Source: Kaiparowitsia implicata GSE-PSE-MK54-09C
GTDB lineage: Bacteria > Cyanobacteriota > Cyanobacteriia > Elainellales > Elainellaceae
Assembly (NCBI GenBank): GCA_019359435.1
Contig: JAHHHI010000062.1
Coordinates: 1 to 64,000 of the forward strand
Direction: 5' to 3'
DNA length: 64,000 nt
Shown here: positions 13,521-58,486 of the stretch, piece by piece
Numbering within the stretch: position 1 is the stretch's first letter
Layout: each line of letters opens with the position of its first letter
The notes under the pieces: model-generated
The model's database searches: none
What the model was told of the DNA's origin: nothing
The model's input: the letters and a program-made list of their open reading frames with translations, nothing else
Made by a program: the position numbers and the translations under genes

Positions 13521-14814
13521 TAGTACGGGCTAGCTGAAATAGCCCTACCATTTAGGGGTAGGGCAACGAGGACTCTCTGTCATGACCAGACTGGCAGCCA
13601 CCCCCATCACCTTGAGCGAACCAGAGCGGACTGAATTAGAACACTTGGTTCGACGGCGGAGTACCTTCCAACAGATCGCCTTGCGCGCCAAGATTATTCT
13701 GTAAGCCAGCCAGGATAAAGGGCATGGCGAAATTGCCCGAGACTTGGAGATGAGCAAAGAGATGAGCCGACGTTGGCGGGGTCGTTGGCTGGAGCTGAGT
13801 CAGCGCAACGGTGCTGTCGAAGACCGACTACAGGATGCCCCGCGAGCGGGGGCACCCGCCACCTTTACCCTCGAGCAAATCACGCAACGCTATGCCCTCG
13901 ACTGTTCCCCGCCGGAGCAGTATGTCCGCCCCATCCGTCATTGAACTCCTCAAGGGCTGGCGGATGAACTGATGAAGCAGGGCATTGTCAAGCGCATCAG
14001 TCCGCGCCATGTGGGCCGACTCTTAGCCGAGGCTGATCTTAAACCGCACCAGAGCCGCTACTGGCTCCCTCCCCCCCCGACCCTAAATCTTCAGACAAAG
14101 TCAAAGACATCTGCCACCTCTACGAGCAAGCCCTGACTCGCGCCGAACACGGCGAATTGACATTCAGTGTGGACGAGATGACAGGGATTCAAGCCCTAGA
14201 ACGGACGATGCCCGACATTGCCATGAAGCTTGGGCGCTGCACCCTCGTCGAGTTTGAATATATTCGCCATGGCACCCAATCCCTAATTGCATCATTCAAC
14301 GTCGCCACCGGACAGGTGAACCAGGCCACCGTGGGAGACACCCGCACCGAGCAGGACTCGATGTCCATCTGCGAGCCTTACTGGCTCAATTGCCGGAGGC
14401 CCCCCAAGATTCATCTCGTCATGGATTGTCTCAATACTCACCAATCGCAATCCCTCCTGCGACTCGTCGCAGAACTGGAGGAGACCCCCATGGCGTTAGG
14501 CCAAAAAGGGAAGTCCGGTATTCTCCAGTCCATGGCGACTCGAGCGGCGGTTTTGAGCGACTCCAACCACCGTTGGGTCGTTCACGTTACCCCCAAGCAT
14601 TGCTCGTGGCTCAATCCCATTGAGATCTGGTTCAGCATCCTAGTTCGCAAGTTGCTCAGACGCTCAAGTTTTACCAGTACGGCCCAACTCAAAGCGAAGG
14701 TTTTAGCATTTGTCGATTATTTCAATCGCACCATGGCTAAGCCGTTCAAGTGGACCTACACGGGTAAGCCCTTGGTCTCATAAATACTTTGGTCATTTAT
14801 GCCGCTAAGTACTA
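13521..14814 (+). mobile_element. IS630-family insertion sequence, inactivated
   Basis: The element carries a transposase pseudogene. Its likely ends are TAGTAC...AAAT at 13521 and the complementary ATTTATGCCGCTAAGTACTA at about 14795-14814; 10 of 18 positions match as terminal inverted repeats and each end shows the TA expected for IS630/Tc1 targets. End positions are inferred from that match. Confidence 0.7.
13582..14783 (+). pseudogene. IS630-family transposase with two nonsense codons and one frameshift
   Basis: Translation from ATG 13582 gives an N-terminal helix-turn-helix part, stopped by TAA at 13702-13704 within an AKIIL-ASQDKGHGEIARDL context and by TGA at 13942-13944, where a Trp codon would be expected. 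The frame continues to a C-run at about 14071-14080, where a one-base shift is needed to enter the frame of the DDE domain (14157-14783). That domain keeps its acidic residues: Asp in SVDEM, Asp in VMDCLNTH and Glu in NPIEIWF, and ends YTGKPLVS. IS630 genes may use programmed frameshifting, but the two stop codons make this copy non-functional in cis. Confidence 0.88.
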
Positions 14815-15302: not shown

Positions 15303-17012
15303 ATGCATCCCGATCGGTCTCTCAGTTCTGTGCCCTTGGGCTCTGTTATCGAAGGCTCCCTCAGTCAGGGCTTGGCGGTGCGTCTACATCCCGATGTGTC
15401 CGTCGAAGACATGCGTGTGGGCAAGTTTTTGGTCGTGCAAGGACGGCGATCGCGCTTCTTTTGCATGCTGACAGATGTGACCCTGGGCACCGCCAGTCCC
15501 CGAATTTTGGCAAATCCACCTGATCCCAGCAATAGTTTTCTGCAAGATGTGCTGGCAGGCAGTGGCACCTATGGCACCATCGATCTCACCCCAATGCTGA
15601 TGTTTACGCCGGTGGATGCCACAGATCCTGATGCAGCATCTCCCTCGCCTTCTGGCCCTCGGGCCAACACCAACGCAGTGGATCTGCTGCCCGTCAAAAC
15701 AATCCCCAGCCATTTCAGCCAGGCCTATGACGCCACCGAGCGTGACTTCAGAGCCGTCTTCGGCTGGGAAGATGATCCCCACCGCCGTAACTTTTCCATT
15801 GGACAACCCATTGATATGGAGGTGCCCATTTGTATCGATCTGGATCGGTTTGTAGAACGCAGCAACGGCATCTTTGGTAAATCGGGCACAGGCAAGTCGT
15901 TTCTAACCCGGCTGCTGCTGTCGGGCATCATCCGCAAGCGTGCCGCCGTGAATTTGATCTTTGATATGCATTCAGAATACGGCTGGGAAGCCACCTGCGA
16001 AGGCAAGCAGTTCAGCACTGTTAAAGGACTGCGCCAGCTTTTCCCGGGTCAGGTGCAGATTTTTACGCTTGATCCTGCCTCCACCCAGCGACGTGGGGTG
16101 CGCGATGCTCAAGAGTTGTTCATCAGCTATGACCAGATTGATGTAGAAGACTTGATGCTGGTGCGGGGCGAGCTGAACCTATCAGAAGCCAGTCTCGAAA
16201 ACGCCATCATTCTGCGCAACGAGTTCGGCAAACACTGGATCAGCCGCTTGATGGCGATGACCAATGAAGAAATTCAGGAATTTTGCGAAGTCAAGATGGG
16301 CAGCAAGTCTTCGATTATGGCGCTACAGCGTAAGCTGACTCGACTGGATGATCTGAAGTATTTGCGCGCTGCCTCTCCGCATAACTATGTAAATCAGGTG
16401 CTCGATGCCCTGCAAGCCGGAAAGCATGTGGTGGTAGAGTTTGGCTCTCAGTCCAATATGCTGTCTTACATGCTGGCGACCAATATTATTGCGCGGCGCA
16501 TTCACGCTCACTATGTGACGAAGGCAGAGCGGTTTCTGCAAAGCAAAAATCCGAGCGATCGCCCTCAACCCCTCGTCATCACGATTGAAGAGGCCCACCG
16601 CTTTCTAGATCCGGCGACGGTGCGGCAAACGATTTTTGGCACCATTGCTCGCGAAATGCGGAAATATTTTGTGACGCTGTTGGTCGTCGATCAGCGCCCG
16701 TCGGGAATCGACAACGAGGTGATGTCGCAAGTAGGAACCCGCATTACCGCCCTGTTGAATGATGAAAAAGATATTGACGCGATCTTTACAGGCGTCTCTG
16801 GGGGCCAAGCACTGCGCTCGGTGTTGGCAAAGCTCGATTCTAAACAGCAAGCGCTGGTGCTGGGGCACGCCGTCCCCATGCCGGTGGTGGTTAGAACTCG
16901 CCCCTATGACAGCACGTTTTATGCCGAGATTGGCGATCGCGACTGGGAGTCTTCTTCAGATGCAGAGGTGCTGATCGCAGCCCAATCCGCCCGGCGGGAT
17001 CTGGGCGTTTAA
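15303..17012 (+). CDS. HerA-like ATPase (HAS-barrel plus DUF87 motor domain)
   Basis: Using the ATG at 15303 the product has 569 residues. Residues about 10-110 look like a HAS-barrel; the RecA/FtsK-like motor follows, with Walker A GKSGTGKS at 192-199, IFDMHSEYGW just after it and Walker B LVITIEEAH at 424-432, then VVDQRPSGID, typical of HerA. In archaea HerA works with the nuclease NurA in end resection; no NurA gene is seen here, so this may be the stand-alone cyanobacterial form. Upstream in-frame Met codons are considered less likely because they add low-quality sequence. Confidence 0.9.
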   Translation: MHPDRSLSSVPLGSVIEGSLSQGLAVRLHPDVSVEDMRVGKFLVVQGRRSRFFCMLTDVTLGTASPRILANPPDPSNSFLQDVLAGSGTYGTIDLTPMLMFTPVDATDPDAASPSPSGPRANTNAVDLLPVKTIPSHFSQAYDATERDFRAVFGWEDDPHRRNFSIGQPIDMEVPICIDLDRFVERSNGIFGKSGTGKSFLTRLLLSGIIRKRAAVNLIFDMHSEYGWEATCEGKQFSTVKGLRQLFPGQVQIFTLDPASTQRRGVRDAQELFISYDQIDVEDLMLVRGELNLSEASLENAIILRNEFGKHWISRLMAMTNEEIQEFCEVKMGSKSSIMALQRKLTRLDDLKYLRAASPHNYVNQVLDALQAGKHVVVEFGSQSNMLSYMLATNIIARRIHAHYVTKAERFLQSKNPSDRPQPLVITIEEAHRFLDPATVRQTIFGTIAREMRKYFVTLLVVDQRPSGIDNEVMSQVGTRITALLNDEKDIDAIFTGVSGGQALRSVLAKLDSKQQALVLGHAVPMPVVVRTRPYDSTFYAEIGDRDWESSSDAEVLIAAQSARRDLGV

Positions 17013-17103
17013 CTGGGTGCCACAGGGTGGGTTGGAGACATCTCGGTTGTTGGCGGAGTCCAAGATTCCTCCCGTTGGTCGGAATGACAGCATTTAATTA
17101 CGT

Positions 17104-17229
17104 TAACGTCAGTTCGGGTTAAGAGGGTTTTGGGGCATCGCGCGACGCGCGATGCCCCAAAACCCTTAATGTGCCGTGCGCGTCGCGCACGGCACATTAA
17201 GGGTTTGAGCTTATCCCGAACTCAGGTTA
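17104..17229. repeat. Double-hairpin MITE, family B, copy 1
   Basis: 126 bp bounded by imperfect 20-bp terminal inverted repeats (TAACGTCAGTTCGGGTTAAG and, at the other end, the complement of TAACCTGAGTTCGGGATAAG; 17 of 20 match). Inside are two perfect 20-bp hairpins with one-base centres at 17145 and 17183, sharing CCC. Both ends are TA, as expected for Tc1/IS630-type targets. It is identical by eye to the copy at 58229-58354. It lies 92 bp after the HerA-like gene. Confidence 0.9.
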
Positions 17230-18114
17230 CGTTACGCCCACCTACTTATAAAGCTGAAAATCAGCAATGCGACACCACGTTCGGTTATCCCGGGGGAGTA
17301 TCCGAACCTGCCTTCTATCCGAAGCTCTGATAATAAGATGAATGTTCACTGTGCATCGTTACATCAGGGCTCCGATTCAAGAGAAAATTTCTGACAAAAT
17401 CCGCACATCAAGCGGGTTGTCATACAGCGAAATTTTACACCTAGCTAACTCTAAGAAACTTAAACCTAGGTTTCCTTCTGGGTTTTCTACTAGGAATCTT
17501 GACAGTGAATATTTGCGTCTTCAGGATCAAGGCCATAGTGCAGCTGCTGTTTTTTGAGTGGCTGTATGGCTACAAAGCTGGTTGAGTCTAGCTTTGCAGA
17601 ACGCTGCCCTTCTATCCAACTTGCGGAGCCGAGCGATAGCAAGACAACTCGCATAAGGAGATTAAACTTTGGGTTCACCAGCGCTTAACACATTCATCCC
17701 TTAAGATCACCCTTCTGGATGAGTTTAGTTTCTTTACTGGAGATTAATGTTGTATTACTATAAGGAAGACGGCAAACTCATAACGACTTCGCATTTGCGC
17801 GGGTACATGTCAACTCTTTTCTATTCCTTTGTAGCATCTCGTCCGTTTTCTATTGACTTGACTGGTCTGGGTTTGACTCTATATCTCGCAGCGGATCATT
17901 CTCCCCACTTCTCTTCAGCCTTATTGTGTTAGCTTGATTCGCCGCTACATTTGCTGGTTCTTGCTATGACCTCGACTCACGATATCGACGCCAAGTCAGT
18001 CTATTTCTAGATATTGTGTTTTAGCACTCGAGTCTTGGTTTTCAGTTCTTTAGGGCGTAGGTTTCTAGCCTCGCTATATATCACAATTATTTTTCGATGG
18101 AGCCTCTGGCAATT
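17230..18114. other. Long intergenic region upstream of the sigma factor gene
   Basis: About 880 bp without a supported gene. Two short open frames (17342-17557, 17747-17932) lack ribosome binding sites and recognisable products. The AT content is higher than in the neighbouring genes. It may hold a long or multiple promoter region for the sigma gene, as is common for group 2 sigma factors, but no individual promoter can be assigned. Confidence 0.4.
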
Positions 18115-21919: not shown

Positions 21920-22114
21920 GTTCTGATAGCGTTGCTTCAGATCCCCATCGCAAGGCTGAAACAGCACTATGCTGACCTCATTGGAGGCAGCATGGTTCAA
22001 GAATTTGCCGAACTGACGTTAGATCGATTAGACACTATAGTCTTCGGCTCTTGCGTGTTTTTATACACACAGTACATTGCGGTTAGGGTCGCAAAGAGCA
22101 CCGTCTTCAGAGAT

Positions 22115-22239
22115 TAACGTCAGTTCGGGTGAAAAGGGTGTTGGGGCATCGCGCGACGCGCGATGCCCCAACACCCTTAATGTGCCGTACGCGTCGCGCA
22201 CGGCACATTAAGGGTTTGAGCTTATCCCAAACTCAAGTG
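22115..22239. repeat. Double-hairpin MITE, family B, copy 2
   Basis: The same organisation as copy 1, with substitutions: GAAAAGGGTGTTGGGG replaces GTTAAGAGGGTTTTGGGG, and the matching arm has compensating changes (CCCCAACACCC), so the hairpin is kept. The second hairpin has one unpaired position (CCGTACGCG against CGCGCACGG). The right end is decayed (CAAGTGA). It lies 74 bp past the SemiSWEET stop codon, in a 760-bp spacer that is otherwise without clear genes. Confidence 0.88.
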
Positions 22240-22312
22240 AGATTAGTGTCTGACGAAGAGACTAGGCGACTCTCGCGTGGCGATACCGATTTAAAACTTG
22301 TTTTGGCCCACA

Positions 22313-31892: not shown

Positions 31893-32017
31893 AGCCTGAG
31901 TTTGGGATACGCTCACGCCTTTAACACGCCGCACTCATTGCGCTCGGCCCATTAAAAGTTTTGGGGCACCGTGCGACGCATGATACCCCAAACCCCTATG
32001 AACCCGAATTGACGTTA
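31893..32017. repeat. Decayed double-hairpin MITE, family B, copy 4, inverted
   Basis: Reading right to left, the family B landmarks return: TAACGTCAATTCGGGTT at 32017 leftward, GGGGTATCATGCGTCGCACGGTGCCCC and GAGTTTGGG near 31900. Many paired positions have mutated, so the hairpins are broken. It ends one base from the trpA stop codon. Confidence 0.75.
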
Positions 32018-51921: not shown

Positions 51922-52023
51922 CAGCGAGGCGCTATAAACCCAACCGTAATAAGTTCGGATTCATAGGGCTTTGGAGCATCGCGCACTCAGGCTATCTACC
52001 CAACCGCCAGTTCGGTAGCGTTG

Positions 52024-53000: not shown

Positions 53001-53320
53001 GCTGCTCTCTGTCTCTGCATCTTTTCTAAGTCTCTGCTGAATCTCTAGTAGGCCGTCGCCTCGTTGCAGGCTTTGCACAGGTGGTGCCGTGAACTTCTGG
53101 CTTTAGCTGCGGGCTACCGCACTAGCCAAGTCTGACTGAAAAGCATTTAACTGAACCGCAGACTCCAATAAACCTAAGTGCAGGATCAGCTCAAACCCTG
53201 GATGTGCCCAGCCCGACACGCAGTGTTCCAAACTCCATCTTCCCTCAAACTAAGGTGCCAATACGGTGGGGATTACGGGAGTATGACAGGTCATTCCCAT
53301 CTTTTGCGATAGTGCCATCC

Positions 53321-58190: not shown

Positions 58191-58225
58191 AACAAAGAGC
58201 AACAGCATTGCCATTGCTCTTTGTT
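58191..58225 (-). terminator. Likely terminator of folE
   Basis: A perfect 12-bp stem AACAAAGAGCAA / TTGCTCTTTGTT with an 11-base loop. On the minus strand it ends TTGTTGTATTT, a partial U tract. The family B copy 3 sits directly against it, between it and folE. Confidence 0.65.
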
Positions 58226-58228
58226 ATG

Positions 58229-58354
58229 TAACGTCAGTTCGGGTTAAGAGGGTTTTGGGGCATCGCGCGACGCGCGATGCCCCAAAACCCTTAATGTGCC
58301 GTGCGCGTCGCGCACGGCACATTAAGGGTTTGAGCTTATCCCGAACTCAGGTTA
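58229..58354. repeat. Double-hairpin MITE, family B, copy 3, identical to copy 1
   Basis: 126 bp with the same sequence, by eye, as 17104-17229, including both 20-bp hairpins and the 20-bp end repeats. It lies between the folE stop (58487) and the hairpin at 58191-58225. Identity over the full length with a copy 41 kb away means recent movement or strong conservation. Confidence 0.92.
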
Positions 58355-58486
58355 TGTAGGGTTTTAACATTCAGCACTATGGCAGTTGAAGCAGTCGTTG
58401 ATTCATTTAGCGATGTAAGATCTGCACACAGCGAAGTCTCACATCGCTAGTTGGCTTCGCCGACGAAACAGTTGGCACAAGCACAC

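Follow-up and report, generated by a model that had tools for sequence, protein, structure and literature searches.

The repeat that occurs twice, 41 kb apart, in the window (the whole 64,000-nucleotide stretch of DNA analysed here) is a 122-bp non-autonomous MITE of the IS982 type. The differences between copies in the arms and loops of its hairpins suggest that arms are copied from one another during DNA replication, rather than being kept matched by a job done as RNA. We judge it probable that the hairpins of this IS982 MITE are kept matched mainly by template switching between the arms.

The Element and Its Copies in the Window

An earlier note on this DNA had judged by eye that the stretches at 17104-17229 and 58229-58354 are identical; when the copies in the window are compared, the identity is indeed exact over 126 bp and ends at both borders. 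The element proper is 122 bp long (17106-17227, plus strand, with the ends ACGTCAG...CTCAGGT), and the outer TA on either side belongs to the duplicated target site. In this first copy the target duplication TACGTTA takes up 7 bp on the left (17099-17105) and recurs on the right (17228-17234); it grows to 8 bp, TTACGTTA, if one assigns the final T of the element to the target. The copy of the same sequence lies at 58231-58352 on the plus strand, between TATGTA at 58225-58230 and at 58353-58358. Another copy, 94.4% identical across 124 bp (22115-22238), holds its element at 22117-22238 on the plus strand, with GAGATTA at 22110-22116 and 22239-22245. The fourth copy, on the minus strand, had been called decayed, and rightly: its match (31895-32017) is down to 77.2% identity across 123 bp, and an exact target duplication was looked for at the flanks of the element (31894-32015) and not found. 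There are also two probable fragments of the MITE, one of the right half at 53171-53222 on the minus strand (81% over 52 bp) and one of the left end at 51952-51984 on the plus strand (85% over 33 bp).

The two hairpins that had been proposed for every intact copy are borne out by complete Watson-Crick pairing in both identical copies, with 17 of 17 pairs in hairpin 1 and 18 of 18 in hairpin 2. In the first copy, hairpin 1 occupies 17127-17163 on the plus strand and has the loop GAC, and hairpin 2 follows directly at 17164-17202 on the same strand with the loop GTC; the self-matches span 17124-17166 and 17160-17206, respectively, and that of hairpin 2 overlaps the right arm of hairpin 1. The 94% copy has 17 pairs in each hairpin, while the decayed one retains 13 of 17 and 11 of 18. 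The compensating changes that the earlier note read in the 94% copy hold for hairpin 1, where a T-A pair has become G-C through one paired change at element positions 23 and 55 (0-based), and fail for hairpin 2, where the one change, at position 72, is unpaired.

Copy Number and Target Sites

The genome of the window (G000) comprises 6.72 Mb in 109 contigs, and the right end of the element (15 bases, at most one mismatch) occurs in it at 155 sites, compared with one site for the reversed pattern. Our sample from this genome consists of 100 fetched regions and the window, which hold the 100 exact right-end sites listed among the 155, plus the IS982 loci and one further copy; copies with an altered right end are therefore under-sampled, and listed sites with no recognisable left end were dropped from the element set. 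Both ends could be recognised for 92 elements of this sample; 72 of these measure 122 bp, and 20 have other lengths. The 122-bp element is short and contains no transposase gene. Thirteen of the 72 sampled 122-bp copies, both window copies included, are identical to one another, and this, together with the 155 sites against one, argues that the repeat is not a product of chance. There are two 84-bp versions, representing two subfamilies (C55:183093-183176 and C81:39499-39582); in both, the same segment between the hairpin loops has apparently been lost.

Target duplications in the IS982 family measure about 6-9 bp. An exact duplication of 6-9 bp flanks 59 of the 72 copies, the other 13 having none; when left and right flanks were shuffled (1000 tries), the mean was 1.83 copies with a duplication and the maximum 7. 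An A immediately precedes the element in 68 of the 72 copies and a T immediately follows it in 70, so that the TA which the earlier note had taken into the element is part of a preferred TA-rich target. One unoccupied site could be identified. The copy on contig 37 sits inside a DDE transposase gene, and contig 85 carries a related DDE transposase gene (92.6% identical, ungapped over 351 bp across the insertion point) that is empty at this place; the empty site reads CAGGTA, and the filled one has TAGGTA on both sides. That the repeat is a mobile element, as had been proposed, is upheld by these duplications and by the ends it has in common with a transposase-bearing element of the same genome.

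By a simple open-frame rule, the genes next to the 72 copies stand in tandem in 26 cases, convergent in 22 and divergent in 11, with 13 cases unassigned; there is thus a weak lean toward gene ends, convergent over divergent. A search of plasmid records with the 122-bp element gave no match.

A Probable IS982-Type Mobiliser

From the TA at both ends and the inverted repeats, the earlier note pointed to a mobiliser of the Tc1/IS630 type, and it proposed to look in the genome for a transposon with the same ends. Such a transposon is present, and it is of the IS982 type. On contigs 1 and 35 there are 979-bp IS982-type elements whose left 18 bp are the same as those of the MITE and whose right end is near-identical, and contig 97 has the left end of another such copy. 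A 170-aa frame of the 979-bp elements scores 148.7 bits, compared with the NCBIfam IS982 cut-off of 130. In Oscillatoria sp. CS-180, a 303-aa open frame lies within the same ends, and 292 aa of it score 260.5 bits.

Nine matches were obtained when G000 was searched with PF13612, and no intact IS982 transposase was found among them. The 979-bp copies share stops, the reading frame is broken in the copies on contigs 7 and 90, the match on contig 77 is partial (98 residues aligned) with no matching ends, and those on contigs 72 and 84 are cut by the ends of the contigs; an intact copy may exist unassembled. The near-identical elements on contigs 1, 35 and 97 (L138, L137 and L125) have their internal stops in common, and they therefore seem to have been copied when already broken; the end piece on contig 84 (L039), which is 98.9% identical to them over 189 bp, shares these stops. 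An exact target duplication of their own was sought for the copies on contigs 1 and 35, and none was seen. Two other genomes, G003 and G013, have 160 and 184 exact right-end sites, respectively, with 0 in the reversed control, and no PF13612 match was found in either despite the many elements. Elsewhere, exact matches to the 18-bp left end turn up in other genomes in at least 101 stretches; of the 80 matches listed, 76 have cyanobacterial titles. From the shared ends, the target duplications and the unoccupied site we infer that an IS982 transposase would have moved the MITE in trans.

A Tc1/IS630 mobiliser, in comparison, has next to no chance of being the right one. Genes of the IS630 type with a DDE domain do exist in G000 (9 matches), one of them inside the window, and the copies as delimited earlier do begin and finish with TA. 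However, the duplicated target is 6-9 bp and not TA, which refutes membership of that group, and the ends that match those of the MITE belong to IS982-type elements. Eight of the nine IS630-type loci were fetched and inspected, and none of these has a MITE end within 2 mismatches; four of the eight have a stray single match with 3 mismatches. The IS630-type gene in the window is a transposase fragment (DDE_3) at 14157-14783, some 2.3 kb before the first copy of the MITE, and the stretch around it has no matching ends.

Covariation of the Hairpin Arms

G003 and G013 represent two other genera of the same family, and their 122-bp elements have the same layout as those of the window, with identities to the window element of 75-77% and 86-90%, respectively, among the matches shown. 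The commonest element length is 122 bp in all three genomes. For the covariation test that had been suggested for these hairpins, we used a pooled ungapped alignment of 50 sequences (16 from G000, 18 from G003 and 16 from G013), selected to be diverse out of 45, 27 and 20 distinct sequences, respectively, and in part picked by similarity. The decayed window copy was excluded from this alignment, from the loop tree and from the neighbour-step counts of G000.

The hairpins do covary. Double changes are seen in 24 of the 35 hairpin pairs and in 0 of the 15 pairs of the terminal repeats, and when the partner is slid by 1-3 columns, 5-10 double-change pairs are left out of 48-50 for the whole structure. 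Counted by cells, the hairpin pairs of the pooled alignment have 259 two-sided changes, 13 one-sided changes and 19 unpaired states. One position is shared by the two hairpins, and it has changed jointly with both of its partners in three distinct sequences of G000.

Comparison of near neighbours indicates that both arms change together in small steps in each genome. There are 14 paired and 12 single steps in G000 (random placement, 1000 tries: mean 0.39, maximum 4), 17 and 22 in G003 (mean 1.0, maximum 6) and 26 and 16 in G013 (mean 2.6, maximum 8). With the decayed copy added, the G000 counts are again 14 and 12, with a null maximum of 3. These combined counts include copies picked by similarity, 14 of 29 in G003 and 13 of 20 in G013; when only the samples drawn by the right end are used, the paired and single steps number 8 and 12 in G003 (null maximum 3) and 18 and 10 in G013 (null maximum 9). 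Of the 20 right-end sites drawn in each genome, 5 in G003 and 13 in G013 gave no 122-bp element with both ends; among the latter, a contig end truncates five, and several seem decayed by eye. Transversions account for 4 of the 14 paired steps in G000, 2 of 17 in G003 and 14 of 26 in G013. The single changes leave G·T in 4 cases and A·C in 7 in G000, 6 and 8 in G013, and 17 and 4 in G003; G·U pairs are rare overall, with an excess of G·T among the single changes of G003.

Loops in Reverse-Complement Forms

The three-base loops vary in a manner of their own. In five of the six hairpin sets from the three genomes, the two commonest loops are reverse complements of each other. Over the six sets, 22 loop types have a reverse-complement partner, whereas 20,000 null draws that preserved the distance of each type from the commonest loop gave 5.07 on average and never more than 16; loops with imperfect inner arms were excluded from the counts. 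Taken one at a time, the sets are of uneven strength, with P values of 0.13 and 0.04 in G000, below 0.001 and 0.11 (hairpin 2) in G003, and 0.47 and 0.05 in G013. The loop forms stand at 48 to 19, 47 to 7, 12 to 5, 8 to 3 and 8 to 4, and in hairpin 1 of G003 at 10 to 8. On a tree built with the loop columns left out, the two loop centres of G000 took 12 and 11 steps, against a median of 1 over the 54 variable columns, the next columns taking 5 and 4. Paths of single steps from one loop form to its partner exist (e.g., TAC, TAA, TTA, GTA), so that inversion of the loop in place is a statistical result and not one seen as single events; several of the single sets are weak, and assembly error is possible.

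Since the loop pairs could be an effect of assembly, we examined G085, a genome in one contig (4,729,581 bp) whose elements are of the Pseudanabaena type and in most cases 145 bp long. Fourteen loci were fetched, of which 11 entered the loop count, 10 of them with paired inner arms. Hairpin 2 has GTA in 7 and TAC in 3 (P 0.04), and hairpin 1 gives P 0.09. When G085 is taken together with 14 other records of the Pseudanabaena type, 10 loop types have a partner (null mean 0.96, maximum 8); the other Pseudanabaena records give P 0.19 for hairpin 2. The one-contig genome agrees with the excess of reverse-complement loops, more weakly than the drafts.

What Keeps the Arms Matched

The proposed mechanism would start from the two adjacent near-perfect palindromes that lie between the terminal repeats. 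During DNA replication, template switching at such hairpins would copy one arm onto the other, and where the copied stretch spanned the loop, the loop would come out inverted in place. Arms matched in this way would require no RNA function. Multi-base compensation and loop inversion are the footprints of template switching described in the part available to us of one study (PMC8794818). The paired small steps, the scarcity of G·U, the transversions and the reverse-complement loops all argue for arm copying; what speaks against it is that in G000 and G003 single steps are about as frequent as paired ones, that G·T is in excess among the single changes of G003, and that the loop tests of several hairpin sets are weak. 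The hairpins may, besides, help transposition or tolerance between genes.

The earlier note held that selection on the fold would explain the compensating changes. The changes are real; as their cause we prefer the copying of DNA arms, the loop pairs being something that selection on an RNA does not predict. Selection on a transcribed hairpin (a terminator, a stabiliser or a small RNA) that restores its fold would suit the strong covariation of the 50-sequence alignment and a predicted fold that is very stable, and it predicts the kind of single change that prevails in G003, where G·T is left far more often than A·C. The single changes of G000 and G013, which leave A·C more often than G·T, go the other way, and the copies lean only weakly to gene ends. 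An Rfam search of the window found no known RNA family at gathering score, and neither a terminator-like nor a promoter-like site was found around the first copy (17000-17330). In the pooled alignment, one-sided cells are rarer than unpaired ones (13 vs 19, beside the 259 two-sided), and these counts, the paired transversions and the loop pairs together lead us to conclude that there is a better explanation than selection on an RNA fold; we regard such selection as distinctly improbable. Selection could also act on the fold of the DNA, if a cruciform or hairpin aided transposition or host tolerance and compensating mutations in two steps were selected. The commonest length of 122 bp in G000, G003 and G013 would fit with this, as would the Pseudanabaena records, which share the two-hairpin layout with other stems at mostly 145 bp. 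The inversion of the loops is left unexplained by it, however, and other cyanobacteria have elements that share these ends but lack strong hairpins (e.g., L216, L218 and L269 at 122 bp; L189 and L241 at 101 bp). We place this explanation on the unlikely side, and note that such selection can act alongside arm copying.

The main caveat on arm copying is assembly error, as short-read assemblers can misjoin palindromes and could thereby invert loops or homogenise arms. It is conceivable that the short-read assembly of a high-copy palindrome has yielded the loop inversion and a part of the arm matching: the assemblies of G000, G003 and G013 are drafts with some 100 to 360 contigs each, the starts of a number of contigs in G013 lie no more than about 110 bases from an element end, and the loop state fits the tree poorly. 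An assembler would not, on the other hand, invent matched differences in the stems between genera; the recurrence of the loop pairs in the one contig of G085 may count against an artefact too; and the two forms of a loop are mostly unequal in count, except for the 10 to 8 of hairpin 1 in G003. An artefact of this kind seems improbable to us.

Beyond template switching between the arms as such, a broader proposal can be put forward tentatively, and we hold it to be possible rather than likely. The IS982 MITEs of cyanobacteria would have become self-correcting palindromes more than once; template switching would have made the double hairpin out of plain elements with the same ends and would go on keeping it matched, and the palindromes would aid spread or tolerance. 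If this is true, the copies, well over a hundred per genome, would amount to a natural archive of template-switching events in bacteria.

Relation to Known Elements

MITEs derived from IS982 are already known (PMC9769881), as are MITEs in cyanobacteria (PMC10969869, PMC3733652), as far as the available parts of these papers go. Close in kind is MITECca01, an IS982-derived MITE of Cardinium: like the present element, it is short and non-autonomous, has inverted repeats of the IS982 type and has its parent IS in the same genome, but it is about 240 bp long as opposed to 122 bp, and the accessible text of the paper contains neither the word hairpin nor the term secondary structure and reports no covariation (PMC9769881). 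Nezha, mentioned in passages of two papers (PMC3733652, PMC10969869), is likewise a MITE in cyanobacteria. REP elements with GTAG or CGTC tags are palindromes in many copies as well, the GTAG type occurring in part in cyanobacteria, and CGTC is also found within the left end of the 122-bp MITE. They are, however, 20-40 bp long, whereas the MITE has terminal repeats and target duplications, and cyanobacteria are not among the five phyla from which CGTC repeats are reported, according to the portion of the source available (PMC3733652).

Template switching has been documented with laboratory reporters in E. coli (PMC7202029) and inferred in RNA genes (PMC8794818). The template-switch mutations in RNA genes resemble what we see, in that paired compensating changes go with loops inverted in place; in the portion available, 6 cases of compensation with loop inversion are counted, and 69 of loop inversion by itself (PMC8794818). 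The difference from these is that here we have a MITE and that both loop forms are common. A search of the open-licence literature, outside of which most subscription papers fall, found no IS982 MITE with paired hairpins and no template switching in a bacterial MITE.

Covariation is usually read as strong evidence of a functional RNA, and here textbook covariation is met in a mobile DNA element. The scarce G·U pairs and the reverse-complement loops point to a mechanism of DNA copying, and they caution against calling such repeats RNA genes. At the same time, the many copies of the element are natural replicates on which template switching could be measured.

Related Elements in Other Genomes

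A structure-model search of 117 genomes gave a match at E 0.001 or better in 25 of them. Matches above 120 bits were confined to G000, G003 and G013, the others reaching at most 52 bits; these weaker matches include 101-bp elements with no two hairpins, and we accordingly do not count all 25 genomes as carriers. The records from Pseudanabaena have two adjacent hairpins between similar ends, with stems that differ and a length of mostly 145 bp.

Elements with the same ends and no two strong hairpins are found in other cyanobacteria, some at a similar length (L216, L218, L263 and L269, 122 bp) and others shorter (L189 and L241, 101 bp; L250, 112 bp); elements of this kind are possibly the ancestral form. 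A spacing of element lengths by about one helical turn (101, 112, 122, 133) was considered and set aside, since outside G000 the lengths 122 and 145 predominate, with 126 and 137 also occurring. In G107, two elements of 147 bp (L335 and L360) have two near-perfect hairpins of yet another sequence.
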